The position numbers and the translations under genes were made by a program. This document shows, piece after piece, positions 1,849 to 32,978 of a stretch of DNA of 55,595 nucleotides; the first letter of the stretch is position 1, and each line of letters begins with the position of its first letter. This DNA comes from an uncultured Clostridia bacterium (GTDB lineage Bacteria > Bacillota > Clostridia > Christensenellales > Borkfalkiaceae), in NCBI GenBank assembly GCA_947589385.1, contig CANPZW010000010.1:1-55595 (forward strand), written 5' to 3'. Under the pieces are notes generated by a model. It saw only the letters and a list, made by a program, of their open reading frames with translations, had not been told where the DNA came from and searched no databases.

Positions 1849-2226
1849 TTACTTTTTAAGGGTTATTTTCATAACGCCCAAATCAAAAGTAATTTTGTTG
1901 CCGTCGCGGGTTGCGTTGGTAATACCGATTCCGCTGAAATCGATTTTTCCGTCGTCCTTTTCTTCCCAGGTGCCGCTTATTTCCGTATCCGAATCAAGCG
2001 ACTTGAAGGTGCAAGTGCCGTCTTTGTTAAGCACAAGTCTGATTGAGCCGGCTTCAAGCTTCTTACCGTTGTATTCCTTGCCTACTTCATAGGTGGTGGA
2101 AAGATTGCCGATGCCGACGGTCAAAGATTCGAATTTGTACGTGCCGCTCACGCCGCAGCCTGCGAGGGAGAAGCAAAGCACTACAACCGCAAGAACGGAA
2201 ACCAAAGATACTGCAAGTTTTTTCAT
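1849..2226 (-). CDS. Small secreted lipoprotein, lipocalin-like beta domain
   Basis: 125 aa with a clear lipoprotein signal: MKK, a hydrophobic stretch and the lipobox LAGC at about residues 21-24, so it should be lipidated at Cys and held on the outer face of the membrane. The mature part reads GTYKFESLTVG... GSIRLVLNKDGTCTFKS... ISGTWEEKDDGKIDFSG, which is the alternating pattern of the small calycin-like beta proteins common in clostridial surface lipoproteins. The start has a GAGGT Shine-Dalgarno. Function unknown; ligand binding or a structural role is possible but not shown. Confidence 0.8.
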   Translation of the reverse strand: MKKLAVSLVSVLAVVVLCFSLAGCGVSGTYKFESLTVGIGNLSTTYEVGKEYNGKKLEAGSIRLVLNKDGTCTFKSLDSDTEISGTWEEKDDGKIDFSGIGITNATRDGNKITFDLGVMKITLKK

Positions 2227-2593: not shown

Positions 2594-2644
2594 TAAGCGC
2601 GTGATAAATTGCCGCAGTCTGCGGCAATTTATCCTTTTTATAGG

Positions 2645-2680
2645 TTGAAAATCCCGAGAGTTTATGTTATAATCGGGCTA
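2645..2680 (+). promoter_or_regulatory. Promoter of ruvX giving a predicted leaderless mRNA
   Basis: TTGAAA (2645-2650), 17 bp, TATAAT (2668-2673) preceded by TG. The ATG of ruvX begins exactly seven bases after the -10, where transcription would normally start. There is no Shine-Dalgarno between, so the mRNA probably begins at the A of the start codon. Confidence 0.75.
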
Positions 2681-3096
2681 TGGAAAGGTACGTGGCTTTC
2701 GATATAGGCGATAAACGAATAGGCGTTGCGGTTTCCGACCCTTTCAATACCTACGCTCTGCCGTCGCAGACCTATTTCAGGAAAGGATTTGCCGAGGACG
2801 TAAAAGCTCTTGCGGAGCTCGCCCGCGAAAAGGGCGCGACTGCCATAATCTGCGGTTTGCCCGTGAATTTCGACGGAACGGAAGGGGAACAGACGGTTAA
2901 AACGCGGCGATTTATACAGGCGCTTTCCGCGGCGACGGATATTCCCGTCGTCTGCGAGGACGAACGTTTTACCACGCAAATGGCGCACGAAGTGCTGATT
3001 TCGGAGGGGATGAGGCGCGAAAAGCGCAAAAATTATGTTGACGCGCTTGCCGCCGCCAACATTCTCGACGGGTATCTTTCAAAATTAAAAAAGTAA
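2680..3096 (+). CDS. ruvX: RuvX/YqgF putative Holliday junction resolvase-like nuclease
   Basis: 138 aa, the usual length for the RuvX/YqgF family. The RNase H-like fold is visible: AFDIGDKRIGVAVSD at residues 6-20 with the first catalytic Asp, CGLPVNFDGTEGEQT in the middle (about 64-78), EDERFTT at about 93-99 and VDALAAANIL at about 123-132 with the final Asp. Members act in 16S rRNA 5' maturation and/or DNA recombination in the cytoplasm. It is followed 11 bases later by the DUF1292 gene, the conserved Firmicutes neighbour (yrrK-yrzB in Bacillus), which supports the call. The start is leaderless (see promoter). Confidence 0.93.
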   Translation: MERYVAFDIGDKRIGVAVSDPFNTYALPSQTYFRKGFAEDVKALAELAREKGATAIICGLPVNFDGTEGEQTVKTRRFIQALSAATDIPVVCEDERFTTQMAHEVLISEGMRREKRKNYVDALAAANILDGYLSKLKK

Positions 3097-3107
3097 AGGA
3101 GAGCGCA

Positions 3108-3392
3108 ATGAGCGAGGAAGAGGAATTTTCGGAAGATGAGCTGATAGAGCTTTTGGACGAAGAGGGCAACATAGCCAAATTCAAACTTTTCGACGTGACC
3201 GAATACAAGGGCGAAAAATATACTTTGCTTCTTACGGCAGAGCCGAACGATGAAATAGCCGACGACGAGGTGCTGATTTTCCGGCTTAACGAAAAGGAGC
3301 AGACGCTTGAAGCTATCGAGGACGAAAATCTTTTGCAGGAGATTTTCGACTTTTACCGTGAGGAATCGGATGAAAGCGAGGGCGAAAATTGA
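3108..3392 (+). CDS. DUF1292 (YrzB-like) protein
   Basis: 94 aa, very acidic at both ends (SEEEEFSEDELIELLDEEGN and EESDESEGEN), with the DUF1292 core of short beta strands: F-x-L-F-D-V-T-E-Y-x-G-x-K-Y, then EVLIFRL and LEAIEDENLLQEIFDFY. DUF1292 proteins are small cytoplasmic proteins of unknown function that sit beside ruvX in Firmicutes, as here. The Shine-Dalgarno AAAGGAGAG precedes the ATG, so this second gene of the operon uses normal initiation although the first appears leaderless. Confidence 0.9.
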   Translation: MSEEEEFSEDELIELLDEEGNIAKFKLFDVTEYKGEKYTLLLTAEPNDEIADDEVLIFRLNEKEQTLEAIEDENLLQEIFDFYREESDESEGEN

Positions 3393-3395
3393 TTG

Positions 3396-3431
3396 TTGAC
3401 TTTTCGTGCCGTTTGTAATATAATGGTCGTA
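3396..3431 (+). promoter_or_regulatory. Promoter of the DtxR-like gene, predicted leaderless
   Basis: TTGACT (3396-3401), 17 bp, TATAAT (3419-3424), then six bases and the ATG at 3431. Geometry is identical to the ruvX promoter and there is no Shine-Dalgarno. Confidence 0.75.
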
Positions 3432-3796
3432 TGAAACGCAACCAGTCAACCGAAGATTATCTTGAATGTATCCTGCTTTTATCGCGCGAAAACGCTTTTG
3501 TTCACCGCGTGGATGTCGCGCGGCGCGTAGGAGTAAGCCAGCCCGCCGTGCAGAAAGCCGTAAAAATTCTGACGGGGCAGGGCTTTGTTGAGTGCGACGG
3601 GTTACATATTTATCTGACTTCGAAGGGCGCGGAGTATGCGGAAAAAATTTACGACAGGCATTGCACCATACGCAGATTTTTAAAGCTTTTGGGCGTAAAT
3701 TCCGAGGACGCCGATTCCGACGCGTGCGAGATGGAGCACGTTTTATCCGAAGCGACATTCGGCGCAATGAAAGCATACGTGGAAAAAAACGGCTGA
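3431..3796 (+). CDS. DtxR/MntR-family metal-dependent transcriptional regulator
   Basis: 121 aa, matching the two-domain MntR type without an SH3-like tail. A winged helix occupies residues 5-70 (STEDYLECILLLSRE; recognition helix around SQPAVQKAVKILTGQGFV). The dimerisation/metal domain follows, with candidate ligands Asp9 and Glu12 in TEDYLECI, a His in YDRHCTIRRFL and the cluster CEMEHVLSE. These match the MntR set (Asp, Glu, His, Glu, Glu, His), so Mn2+ or Fe2+ sensing is likely. It is monocistronic and no metal transporter is adjacent, so its targets are elsewhere. The start is predicted leaderless. Confidence 0.85.
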   Translation: MKRNQSTEDYLECILLLSRENAFVHRVDVARRVGVSQPAVQKAVKILTGQGFVECDGLHIYLTSKGAEYAEKIYDRHCTIRRFLKLLGVNSEDADSDACEMEHVLSEATFGAMKAYVEKNG

Positions 3797-7426: not shown

Positions 7427-7462
7427 TTAAATTTAATCGCCGGTTGTGATATAATGGACTTA
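7427..7462 (+). promoter_or_regulatory. addB promoter, predicted leaderless
   Basis: TTAAAT (7427-7432), 17 bp, TGATATAAT with the -10 at 7450-7455, then six bases and the addB ATG at 7462. No Shine-Dalgarno is present. Confidence 0.7.
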
Positions 7463-10400
7463 TGATAAAGGCTATAAGCTGCGCCGCGCTGTCGGTAGCG
7501 CTTGAACAACTGAAAAAAATAACTTCGGAAAACGAGGCGGCGGGGCTTCCCACCGTCGTCTTCTGCGAGGACAGGCTGTCCCTTGCCGCGGAGCGCACGG
7601 TTTGCGCGGCGGTGGAAGGGACTTTCCTTACCTCGGTATATACCTTTGCGCGCTTTCTGTCCGCCGAATGCGGCAAGCCGCAGGGCGTGCTTTCCGCGCA
7701 GGGCTCAGCTATGGCGGTGCGCAGAATAATCGAGGAAAACAGGCAAAAGCTGTCCGTATTCAGACAGCTTACCGCGCCCTCCGCGGCGCAGGCGGTTTAC
7801 GATACCATCGCGCTTTTGTATTCTTCGCGCGTGTCCGCCGAAGATATAGAAAACGCCGTATGCGCGGGTGAAATCCTAGGCGGCAAATTAAAGGATTTGG
7901 CGCTTATATACGGCAAATATATGCAGTATCTGAAAGACTGCGGAATGGAGGACAGAAACGGTTATCTCCGCCGTCTTGCGCCCGTAATAGAAAAAAGTCC
8001 GAAAATAAAGGGGGCGTGCGTAATTTTTCTGGGCTTTCAGGCGTTCACCTGCACAACCGCGGAGTGCGCGCGGGCGGCTTTTTCTTCGGCAAAGGACGTT
8101 TACGGGCTGTTTATAGGCGGCAGGGAGGATATTTACGTAAACGAAGCTTCTGCGGCGTTCGTAGCCGCGGCGGCGGAGTTCGGCGGAGCGGCGCATACCC
8201 TGCGGGAAGGAAACCTTCTAAGGGAGGCGGACCTTTTAAGGCGCAGGCTGTTCGACCCCGAAAGCTTTTTCGGCTCTGCGGAAAAGACGGACAGGGTTCA
8301 CGTTTTCGAGGCGGTTGACGGCGAAGAGGAGCTTGAATTTATCGCCGCAAGCATAAAGCGGCACGTCATAGACGGGGGCGAAAGGTATTCCAAAATATCC
8401 GTCATGCTGCCCAATCTGGAAAAATGCGAGGCGGAGCTCGCACGCGTGTTCTCGAAATTCCGCATACCGTATTACGTTGACAGGCGCGTTTCCCTCTCCG
8501 AGCACCCGCTGTGCGCGTTTATATTCTCCTTTTTAAGCTGCGTTCTTTCGGGCTGCCGACCGCAGGACGTCGATGGCGCGGTAGCCTCACCGTTTTTCCC
8601 TGCGGAGCGCGCGGACAAGGATATTTTCCGCAACTACGCTTTGCGCCTTGCAAATTGGCGCGGCGGCGTCAGACGCCCCCCCAAAAAGGAGATTCTTGAC
8701 AGTTTCGGCTTCGATATCGAAGCGGTGGAAAGGGTCAGGTCGGTTTTTTTGCGGGGCTTGAAAATTCTTTCGTCGGCGGAAAACGTATTCGAGGGCTTGA
8801 AGGCTTTGCTTGCCGATTACGGCGCGCCCGAAAAGCTGGATAAGCTTTCCGAAAGTTTCAAGGACAGTTATCCCGCGGCGGCGGCTTTCGGCAAACGCAC
8901 GTACGAGGGCGTATTAAGCGTTCTAAACGAAGCCGAAGGGCTTTCGGCGGGGCTGGCTTTAAAGGACGTTATAAAGGTACTTAAAAGCGGCTTTACCGCC
9001 GCGGAAATATCGCTTATCCCGCCCAAGGCGGACGCGGTTTTCGTGGGGGATATCGCCGCTACGGCAAACACGGGCAGCAACGTCGTTTTCGCCGCAAGGC
9101 TTACGGGCGACGTGCCCGAAGCGGGCGCGGATTCCTCCCTTTTAACGGACAGGGAGCTGAATATTTTGGAAAGCATAAGCCTTGACATATCCCCGAAAAT
9201 CAGACAGGTCAACGCGAGAAAACGCGAAACGGTTGCGCTTAACGTCTGCGCTTTCAGGGAACAGCTTTATCTGTCCTATCCCGTAAAACTCGACGGCGAA
9301 GAGAGCGGACCGAGCGAAATAATCGCATATGCGCGCGCGGCTTTCCTTTCGCCCTCGGGAACGCCCCTTATCGCTTCGGACTTAAAACGCATAGAAAGGA
9401 CGGGGCGCGCCCTTCCCTTTTACGCAAGCGAAAAACTCCCCGCCATAAAACAGCTTTTGAAGTTGAAAAACAGCCCCGCGCAAGCGTCCGCGGTATATGA
9501 AGTTTTAAAGCGCCGCGGCTACGAAAGCGAGGCGAACGCCGCCCTTTCGGCGCGCCCCCGCCGCGTAATATCCTGCGGGAAACAGCTTTATCTCGCTTAC
9601 AACAGTCTTTCGCCCACCGCGCTCGAAAGTTATTTTTCCTGCCCCTATCTCGGCTTTATGCGGCAGGGACTTAAAGTGCAGGAGAGGGAAGAGGGCGCCG
9701 TGCGCGCAGTGGATACGGGAAATTTTATCCATTCCGTATTGCAGGATTTGGCTTATGAAATAAACGGCATATCCGAACTTTCCGTCCTCGAAAAAAGGGC
9801 GCGCGAACTTGCCGAAAACAAACTTTCCCGTCCGCCCTATTCCTCGCTATCAGACGAAAAGCGGGGGCGGTACACCGCGGGCGAGCTTATCGAAGAAGCG
9901 GTAAAGGTTTCGGTTGGGATGTTCCAACAGATTAAAAATTCGCGTTTTACGGTATTTTCCGCCGAGGGCAGGTGCGAGGTCGCCCTGTCGCCCGACGTAA
10001 AGCTTTACGGCAGAATAGACCGCGTTGACGAATGTGACGGAATGGTAAGGATAATAGACTATAAGACGGGCGCAATCGACTGTTCGCCCGAAAAATATTA
10101 TACGGGTGAAAAATTGCAGTTGCCGTTGTATCTGCTTTCGGCTTCCGAGGGCAAAAGGGCGGTCGGCGCATATTATTTCCCCGCGGCGGTGGAATACCGC
10201 GAAAAGCCTGACGGCGTGTTCCGTCTGCAAGGCTTTATGGACGGCAGCGAGGACGTGGTTTCCGCTTCCGACATAAATTTGCGGGAAAAAGAGAAGTCGG
10301 AATACATAGACGCATATTTAAACGGCAGGATGCCCGACAAGGTAATGGGCAGGGAAGAATTTGCAAACTTTTTGGCGTATTCCCGCCTTATAGCGGAACG

Positions 10401-30405: not shown

Positions 30406-31893
30406 TTACGTTTTTATGTATTTTTCGAAAATTTCGTTTAATTCAATTATATGGCTTTGATTATTATCGGCTTTGAGTAAGCCGTAAATTTTCAGGATTT
30501 TTTCTTTATCCGATTGTGAAACCGCTTTCATATCCAAAACCATAGCGTTATTCAAATCGTTTGGTTCGAATTTATCCAATCCCTCGCCGTATTCTCTTTT
30601 ATGCCGTTTCAAAATTTCACGGGCGGCGGGGGTAATCAGATAGCAGTAAAAGATATTTATATAATCTTCCGTGACGTTGCCGTTAAAATATAACCCGTGA
30701 AAGGCAGTTAAATTTTTGGCTTTCGCCTCGTTTCTGATTATTTTCAGCTTGCCGCGGTTGAAAACGGAAATAAGAATGGGGGCGGAATCTTTCTTTTCCA
30801 ATGAATACCAGGGCTTTCTATGGGACGTAAGATAGGCTTTATCGCACCCGCGGCTTTCCCCGTAAGCGATATAATCGAAATCTCCCTTTGAAAGCGCTTT
30901 TGTGCCGTCGAATAAAAACATTTTTTTGTTTTTTTCCGCTAAACGCCGGAAAACTTCTTCGGTGAGAATACAGCAATTGAGATTTTGTGATTTCGTTACG
31001 CAGGGAACGCATGCGCTACGGTTTAAATTATGCGCTTTTATTTTTTCTTCGGATAAGACAAAGAAATCGTTGCTCCCTGTCGCTATTCCCCGTTTAACCT
31101 TTGCTATTGACGATAAGCAAACCAGATTATTGCATACGTACGCGCGTTTTTCGCTATTGAAATAATTCAACCATTTTTCTTTGAAATCTATTTCGCCAAT
31201 TGCAAGTCTTGTGGCGTTTTTAGGAAAATCTTCCAGTTCGTCAAGGTCGTAAACGTTGATAAAATCGATATAACCGTTATCGCTTTTTTCCAAACACAGT
31301 ATGCAGGAGGTGGTTATGGCGTCCTTAAATAATTTTATCCGTGAATCGAATTTTATTATATGTTTTATGATTTTCAGGTCGAGTAAATATTTTTTAACCG
31401 TTTCGCCGTATCCCGTATTCAGAAATTCATAGGGAAGAATGTAACAGCATCTGCCGTTTGCTTTAAGTTCGTTTACGCTTTTAATTAAAAAATATACGCA
31501 AAGATTGCTGTAACCGCTTAAAGATATACCATAATTTTCTTTAAACAGCTTATTGTAATACTTCCTTTTCGGTATTTGCTGGAATTTGTTGTAGGGCGGA
31601 TTGCAAATAATTGCTCCGAATTTTTCGTCGAGAACGCTGTCCAGATAGTCCTGATTTTTTAAATTGAAATCAAAATGACAGTTTTCCGAAAGGTTTTTAC
31701 AAGTTTGCTTATCTATTTCAAATGCTGTAATTCTTAAATTCGGTCTGCGTTTTTTCCCTGCTAGCAAAAAAACTCCCAAACCCGCCGCTGGGTCTAAGAT
31801 GTCGTCTCCCTTTTCACCCAAAACCCAGTTTATCATGAACTCGGCAACGGGGCGCGGGGTATAAAATTGACCTAAAAGGTTTTTTTCTTTCAT
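30406..31893 (-). CDS. Type II N6-adenine DNA methyltransferase (gamma class)
   Basis: 495 aa. The motif order is gamma class: motif X GQFYTPRPVAEFM (residues 8-20), motif I DILDPAAGLGVFL (31-43) for S-adenosylmethionine, and catalytic motif IV NPPY (98-101). The C-terminal half (about 240-495) is a TaqI-like target-recognition domain with KVKRGIATGSNDFF and a late PLAREILK-like helix. It would methylate adenine in the site cut by the partner endonuclease. It overlaps that gene by 4 bases. Base composition is visibly more AT-rich than the flanks, indicating horizontal transfer. Confidence 0.9.
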   Translation of the reverse strand: MKEKNLLGQFYTPRPVAEFMINWVLGEKGDDILDPAAGLGVFLLAGKKRRPNLRITAFEIDKQTCKNLSENCHFDFNLKNQDYLDSVLDEKFGAIICNPPYNKFQQIPKRKYYNKLFKENYGISLSGYSNLCVYFLIKSVNELKANGRCCYILPYEFLNTGYGETVKKYLLDLKIIKHIIKFDSRIKLFKDAITTSCILCLEKSDNGYIDFINVYDLDELEDFPKNATRLAIGEIDFKEKWLNYFNSEKRAYVCNNLVCLSSIAKVKRGIATGSNDFFVLSEEKIKAHNLNRSACVPCVTKSQNLNCCILTEEVFRRLAEKNKKMFLFDGTKALSKGDFDYIAYGESRGCDKAYLTSHRKPWYSLEKKDSAPILISVFNRGKLKIIRNEAKAKNLTAFHGLYFNGNVTEDYINIFYCYLITPAAREILKRHKREYGEGLDKFEPNDLNNAMVLDMKAVSQSDKEKILKIYGLLKADNNQSHIIELNEIFEKYIKT

Positions 31894-32978
31894 TCTATGC
31901 TAAATCCGAATAATTCTTCGAAGCCCTTTGTGTTTATTTGTACAATGCTTTTTTCAAAGGTGACGTAAAACAATAATCTTCCCCGTCCAAGCTCTTTCAT
32001 TTTGCTTTTATGCTCGGGCAGAGAAACTTTTTGCAGAATATTTTTGCCTTTGTCGGGTTTGATTTTTATCGTCGTTTTATTTTGGTTTTTAACGTCGCTT
32101 TCTATGAAATAATCCCTGCCTTCCGCTTCTTCATCGCACAGCAAGGTTAAAATTTCTTCATATGAAATTCCGTACGCCTTGTCGAAAAACACCTGCAAGT
32201 AATAGTGGGGAACGTTATACCTTTTTACCCAATTATAGACTACCTTTAAATCCTCGACTTTGGGAGTAATGCTTAAAAATTTCCTTGTCTGGATTTTCGT
32301 TAAACATAGTTTCAATTCTTTTAGCAGCGAAGATAATTGGGACAATTCCTGCGAACTTTTCCAGGAAGGAGCGCGATAGGAAACTACGGAGATATTGTCC
32401 TTATCCAATGCGGAAATTATTTTATGCAGCTCGGGATTTTTTTTCAGAAGCAATTCGGAAAAATTATTTATAATGCTTGCTTTTAAATCAAAAATTTTTT
32501 TAAATAAAAAGGATTCTTCGCCTTGCATATAAGCATTATATTTATCGTATAAAAAGGAACTTGACCTTATTTCGATGCCGCACTTTGCTTTCGGCACCAG
32601 CAAATCCAATTCTTCTTGCGATAAACGGCAAATATTATCTGTATCGTAAGGGAAATCTTTTTTATTGAAAATCAATACGTCGGGGCGCTTGCCTATCTCG
32701 TCGAGTTCGTGTTGATAGTTTCGGTAAAATTCGGCAAAGCCTGTTTCGCCGGCTATTATATCGTCGTCCCGCCCGTATTTTACGGCGATATAATTTTTCG
32801 AAAAATCGTTAATGCCCTTAATAAAAGTTTTTTCCGCCCAATCGCCTTGTTCTTTGTTGGTTAAAAATTCGGAAGAAACCTGCGTCGGCACGCCGTATTT
32901 TTCCCTTTCGACATTCAAATCCAATAATTCTCTGTTGACGTTTTTGATGACGCTTTCGATTTTTTCTATGTATTCCAT
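31890..32978 (-). CDS. Probable type II restriction endonuclease (AccI-like)
   Basis: 362 aa. It overlaps the methyltransferase by ATGA, the classic arrangement of a type II pair. Motifs: NKEQGDWAEK (41-50) with a conserved Glu, IGKRPDVLIF (95-104) with Asp100, and CGIEIRSSSFL (133-143). Together these resemble a PD-(D/E)xK nuclease core as in the AccI group, though the last catalytic position is Arg138 rather than Lys. The C-terminal half may read DNA sequence. Promoter TTACAT-17-TATAAT and GAGG site precede the ATG. AT-rich like its partner. Cognate site unknown. Confidence 0.72.
   Translation of the reverse strand: MEYIEKIESVIKNVNRELLDLNVEREKYGVPTQVSSEFLTNKEQGDWAEKTFIKGINDFSKNYIAVKYGRDDDIIAGETGFAEFYRNYQHELDEIGKRPDVLIFNKKDFPYDTDNICRLSQEELDLLVPKAKCGIEIRSSSFLYDKYNAYMQGEESFLFKKIFDLKASIINNFSELLLKKNPELHKIISALDKDNISVVSYRAPSWKSSQELSQLSSLLKELKLCLTKIQTRKFLSITPKVEDLKVVYNWVKRYNVPHYYLQVFFDKAYGISYEEILTLLCDEEAEGRDYFIESDVKNQNKTTIKIKPDKGKNILQKVSLPEHKSKMKELGRGRLLFYVTFEKSIVQINTKGFEELFGFSIE

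Follow-up and report, generated by a model that had tools for sequence, protein, structure and literature searches.

Predicted leaderless starts of ruvX and a DtxR-like regulator gene in a family of Clostridia, and their conservation among relatives

Two neighbouring genes of an uncultured clostridial bacterium of the family Borkfalkiaceae, ruvX and a gene for a DtxR-like regulator, each carry a promoter lying so near the start codon that the mRNAs are predicted to have no leader, or one of a few bases, and to be translated without a Shine-Dalgarno (SD) sequence. The genes lie in a stretch of 55,595 nucleotides (GenBank contig CANPZW010000010.1), which was analysed as a whole and is referred to here as the window; the host bacterium is probably gut-dwelling. 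In the explanation that we favour, housekeeping-sigma promoters with a -10 box ending six bases ahead of the start codon would drive both genes, RNA polymerase would most likely initiate at the A of the ATG, and ribosomes would begin at the 5'-terminal AUG independently of an SD. The DUF1292 gene that lies between the two, within the predicted ruvX transcript, would be translated through an ordinary SD. Leaderless starts would thus be a minor but maintained second mode of starting genes in this family, and ruvX would switch between the modes by gain or loss of mostly ~20-40 nt between promoter and start codon. Judged from comparative sequence analysis, this explanation as a whole, covering both genes, their missing or very short leaders, their SD-free starts and the maintenance of this minor mode in the family, is very probably correct. 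The original prediction of leaderless starts for the two genes is supported by a genome-wide excess of the arrangement TATAAT, six bases, ATG (TATAAT-N6-ATG, or N6), by the conservation of this spacing, by two classes of leader length among ruvX orthologues, and by the orthologues of the regulator gene.

Leaderless mRNA is a known mechanism and has already been predicted in some Firmicutes. Zheng et al. (2011) described TA-led genes, in which the motif TANNNT lies ~12 bases before the start codon; they were predicted in 56 of 209 Firmicutes genomes, with a mean share of 4.2% of genes (PMC3160421). In low-GC Firmicutes the signal was given as TAtAAT, with TG before it in some genomes (PMC3160421). 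Those TA-led genes are concentrated in Lactobacillales and Mycoplasma, whereas the genes described here belong to a clostridial family; the main text of PMC3160421 contains no words beginning with Clostridi or Mollicutes, and Borkfalkiaceae were presumably not among its genomes. In Deinococcus-Thermus, a -10 element situated a few bases ahead of the open reading frame has been shown experimentally to drive leaderless mRNA (PMC12340547). According to the same source, almost one third of the open reading frames of D. radiodurans are of this kind, compared with 3-5% of genes here, and the promoters described here differ from its -10 motif in that they additionally have a clear -35 element.

Leaderless starts had been taken to be little described in Clostridia. 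The descriptions are indeed sparse, yet they exist for four species with mapped start sites. There are 15 potential leaderless genes in C. difficile (PMC7438776), 11 leaderless open reading frames in A. bakii, all of them beginning with ATG, with GTG and TTG used only behind leaders (PMC6239172), and ~70 mRNAs with a leader of <10 nt in C. autoethanogenum (PMC6873888). For C. phytofermentans, the reported share of leaderless starts is 4% within one class of start sites, and these generally come with a ribosome-binding site and a further start upstream (PMC5171806). These genes are of the same class as those described here, and in the accessible text of the four reports (PMC7438776, PMC5171806, PMC6239172 and PMC6873888) we found no analysis of conservation. 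In the open-licence literature we found no paper on leaderless mRNA in Christensenellales, no mention of "leaderless" in connection with Borkfalkia or Coproplasma and, going by titles, no paper on GeneMarkS-2, leaderless genes and Firmicutes together. What appears to be new is the lineage, the conservation, and the repeated switching of one gene between two start modes, which are unusually cleanly separated in that gene. A conserved set of SD-less genes in a clostridial family would extend the known range, the mapped Clostridia found in print having few true leaderless genes, and it also matters for annotation, as gene-finding programs that look for an SD can place leaderless starts wrongly.

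All elements of the locus lie on the forward strand. An intrinsic terminator found in a terminator scan (2603..2640; a 14-bp stem at 2603-2633 followed by a U tract, RNA fold -20.3 kcal/mol, z -6.1) should insulate ruvX from the preceding gene. The ruvX promoter follows, with a -35 element TTGAAA (2645..2650), a 17-bp spacer, and an extended -10 element (2665..2673) made up of TG at 2665-2666 and TATAAT at 2668-2673; the six bases CGGGCT separate it from the ATG at 2680. The gene itself (2680..3096), predicted to be leaderless, encodes a protein of the Holliday junction resolvase family (PF03652, E=4e-40), and its start at ATG 2680 is bounded by the conserved N-terminus. The DUF1292 gene (3108..3392; PF06949, E=1.5e-9) has an SD-led start, with AAGGAG read from the sequence at 3096..3101. 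Behind it lie the -35 element TTGACT (3396..3401) and the -10 element TATAAT (3419..3424) of the regulator gene, again with a 17-bp spacer and with six bases, GGTCGT, before the ATG at 3431. This gene, likewise predicted to be leaderless, encodes a DtxR-type metal-dependent repressor (3431..3796) with two iron-dependent repressor domains (PF01325 and PF02742). Each of the two promoters matches the consensus at 11 of 12 bases, and the identical geometry that had been claimed for them (a -35 element, a 17-bp spacer, TATAAT, six bases and ATG) is exact. As in TA-led genes, the first T of the -10 box (TANNNT) lies ~12 bases before the start codon of both genes. Scans of the window for Rfam families and tRNAs gave no match. 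On the minus strand, a promoter that matches the consensus at 12 of 12 bases (2272-2300, TTGACA-17-TATAAT) stands ~45 bases ahead of a 125-aa open reading frame (1849-2226, minus strand), which is lipoprotein-like by eye and without a Pfam match; this frame has a conventional promoter and a normal leader.

The potential for SD pairing was estimated as the duplex energy of the 20 nt upstream of the start with a generic 16S tail. It amounted to -2.5 kcal/mol for ruvX, -5.1 kcal/mol for the DtxR-like gene and -9.6 kcal/mol for the DUF1292 gene, compared with a median of -3.2 kcal/mol for random 20-mers, which bears out the claim that the first two lack an SD and that the third has a strong one. 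The pairing of -5.1 kcal/mol at the DtxR-like gene adjoins the ATG, too near for SD function, and complementarity ~4-12 bases before the start was found at the DUF1292 gene and at neither of its neighbours. These observations bear on the alternative that the main expression of both genes comes from promoters farther upstream, on longer transcripts, and that the adjacent -10 boxes contribute little or arose by accident. For dtxR such an origin is conceivable, since 38 bases separate the gene from the DUF1292 gene and no terminator was called in that interval, and in C. phytofermentans potentially leaderless genes generally have another start upstream (PMC5171806). However, read-through RNA from ruvX would hold no usable SD for dtxR, so that this gene would depend on its own promoter. 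Because the strong terminator stands just before the ruvX -35 element, with ~40 bases from its U tract to the ATG, no upstream transcript is expected to provide a leader for ruvX. The spacing between promoter and ATG is, moreover, conserved among relatives, and we regard main expression from upstream promoters as improbable.

The arrangement TATAAT-N6-ATG occurs four times in the window, where 0.27 occurrences are expected and none of 100 shuffles reached four. In the genome (1.53 Mb) it occurs 58 times, compared with 21 occurrences of the reversed pattern, 22 with a gap of eight bases (N8) and 23 with a gap of nine (N9), which keeps the codon phase. The reversed pattern was judged to be a weak control, TATAAT being itself a promoter word, and was replaced by N8 and the phase-matched N9. 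An excess over shuffled or control sequence had been proposed as a check of the original prediction, and it is present in this genome, in its genus, and in counts by gap length. Base composition alone could have produced such sites, as AT-rich DNA often gives TATAAT and ATG, and going by the N8, N9 or reversed counts, ~20 of the 58 genome sites are indeed to be expected. Against this, N6 exceeds all of those controls, and promoters that predict a leader of exactly zero number 40 among the ruvX orthologues described below, compared with 0.05 in dinucleotide shuffles, which leaves chance as a very improbable account.

Gaps were counted in a genome sample of 455 kb with 349 called genes and 620 plausible ATG starts. 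TATAAT preceded these starts 11 times at gap 6, zero times or once at each of gaps 1-5 and 7-9, and four times at each of gaps 0 and 10. The looser motif TANNNT gave 29 at gap 6, 9-16 at each of gaps 1-5 and 7-11, 25 at gap 0, and up to 27 at gaps >12. When a promoter matrix was trained on ruvX from other genomes, it gave a gap-6 match in 11 of 347 genes. Roughly 3-5% of the genes in this genome seem to have a leaderless start. The direct gap counts and the ruvX-trained promoter score superseded an unsupervised mixture model of start signals, whose free promoter component drifted to an AT-rich motif and was uninformative; its weights were largest at gap 0 (0.347), with a second peak at gap 6 (0.141, compared with 0.001-0.002 in three shuffled sets).

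Ten of the 11 gap-6 genes have a Pfam match, and one is a short open reading frame without a match. By these matches they are ruvX, the DtxR-like gene, an addB-like gene, a GHMP kinase that we read as ispE, a nucleoside phosphorylase-superfamily gene, queH, lepA, a helicase, an acetyltransferase gene and an HTH regulator. Seven of the 11 are divergent from the upstream gene and two more lie >160 bases behind it; only the DtxR-like gene closely trails its neighbour, and ruvX sits behind the terminator. Pairing with the 16S tail of -6 kcal/mol or stronger was found in two of the 11 (-7.0 and -8.6). The 11 thus pair much as random DNA does, since 19% of random 20-mers reach this strength, compared with 74% among 323 other genes, each of the latter assigned its best candidate start. 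The missing SD of N6 genes is partly forced, because the -10 box sits in the SD position. The addB-like gene (CDS from 7462, forward strand; ADDB_N and PDDEXK_1) supplies the third N6 start of the window (7450..7464). The fourth N6 site, at 32526-32540, was rejected as a gene start. The open reading frame concerned (31893-32528, minus strand) matches the AccI restriction endonuclease family only at profile positions 163-350 of 366, and as its N-terminal part is missing in this frame, the site is probably no gene start.

Upstream regions of ruvX were compared at 110 loci, namely the best 30 of 61 matches in the family and, from named genomes, the best 80 of 570 that were confirmed; being the best-matching part, these loci are skewed to close relatives. 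They yielded 103 distinct upstream regions. The start codon of each orthologue was taken as the start nearest the conserved N-terminus, and promoters were called with fixed weights by a procedure blind both to the SD and to the distance from the start. A promoter was called in 93 of the 103 regions (10 had no call), compared with a mean of 4.1 in 40 dinucleotide-shuffled sets. The predicted leaders of these 93 genes fall into two classes, 0-7 nt in 54 genes, exactly 0 in 40 of them, and at least 19 nt in 39, and no leader measures 8-18 nt. An SD motif was found in 2 of the 54 short-leader genes and in 34 of the 39 long-leader genes; two N6 genes have a 4-base SD-like match, and five long-leader genes have no detectable SD. 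The start codons of the short class are 51 ATG, 3 GTG and no TTG, and those of the long class 19 ATG, 7 GTG and 13 TTG, so that the near-exclusive use of AUG that marks TA-led genes is seen in short-leader ruvX (51 of 54). Neither the absence of leaders of 8-18 nt nor the restriction of TTG to long leaders is forced by geometry.

It is fairly likely that the same gene has two discrete states in the family, one with a leader of 0-7 nt, without an SD and nearly always with ATG, the other with a leader of 19 nt or longer that usually holds an SD and with ATG, GTG or TTG, and that ruvX has crossed between them repeatedly. On the best RuvX tree, which is weakly resolved, the N6 state changes 13 times, and at least five of these changes are forced by well-supported branches; the direction of each switch is one that we infer. 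In a clade-aware paired test on this weakly resolved tree, of low power with its five independent pairs, the SD and the T at position -1 differed in the expected direction but not significantly (median p of 0.5), and the link to ATG gave almost no contrast. If the reading of two states is true, ruvX would be a natural experiment on the gain and loss of leaderless genes, and a two-state leader in one orthologous gene makes the minimal change that renders an SD-led gene leaderless open to testing.

Three hexamers at gap 6 (TAATGT, TACTGT and TAATTT) were dropped as not being true -10 boxes, which lowered the count of N6 ruvX genes from 45 to 42 of 103. The base at -1 is T in 36 of these 42 genes and in 32 of the 61 others, a bias that a transcription start at this place would be expected to produce, and over all 58 N6 sites of the genome T at -1 is moderately enriched (38 of 58, compared with 95 of 178 SD-preceded starts). 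The TG of an extended -10 element is also frequent in N6 ruvX orthologues, with T in 39 of 41 and G in 36 of 41. In the distant relatives L122, L123, L126, L130 and L138, the ruvX -35 element is TAGACG, set in a stretch where GATAGAC is repeated, and differs from the usual TTGACA.

In bacteria the distance from the -10 box to the transcription start varies by a few bases, and polymerase prefers a pyrimidine followed by a purine at the start. Polymerase might accordingly begin a few bases before the ATG and produce leaders of 1-9 nt instead of none, with translation still independent of an SD. This is a variant within the leaderless explanation, and its odds are not to be added to those of the whole. 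Predicted leaders of 1-7 nt in 14 ruvX orthologues speak for it, as does the known variation in distance, and such relatives imply that an exact zero is not required. The peak, however, is sharp at gap 6 and absent at neighbouring gaps, and T at -1 together with the A of ATG suits the preferred pyrimidine-purine start, so that short leaders in place of none seem rather unlikely. The leaderless reading of ruvX is thus well supported, and the exact position zero less so, given the relatives at 1-7 nt. Among close relatives, the loci L083-L087, L094-L096 and L099 have predicted ruvX leaders of 1-7 nt and no SD, and are near-leaderless.

The dtxR set consisted of the best 30 of 57 matches together with the loci from the named genomes used for ruvX, giving 35 distinct rows, one of them a partial match. 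Nine orthologues share at least 60% identity, that of the window included; six of them have the N6 promoter and ATG, and three carry a G-rich SD-like motif in its place. N6 was also seen by eye in one (L189) of the other 26 rows. Within the genus, dtxR thus shows the same choice between two predicted start modes as ruvX. For addB, the best 30 of 59 matches in the family were compared and 7 of these loci kept N6, a generous count, as any in-frame start was accepted, which favours N6.

The excess extends across the genus, where N6 occurs 986 times and N9 495 times, and all 25 of 25 genomes, that of the window included, have more N6 than N9 sites. In the order, the same holds for 12 of 16 genomes that represent other families. 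A wider sample of the class comprised 243 genomes at least 90% complete. The N9 control was applied to genus and order, and the class was compared by N8, which is not phase-matched, and for this reason the class median served as the yardstick. The ratio N6/N8 had a median of 0.82 in the 230 genomes outside the order and was 2.35, pooled, in Borkfalkiaceae (four genomes, that of the window included), which had the strongest excess of N6 over N8 among the 71 families of the sample. Set against the class median, this excess indicates that the N6 signal belongs to some lineages and not to Clostridia at large. Next after Borkfalkiaceae came two families, f54 and f18, the latter of the same order, with pooled N6/N8 ratios of ~1.5, and a single genome of another family (G189, f25) reached 2.4; these two families and this genome may possibly represent further lineages that use leaderless starts.
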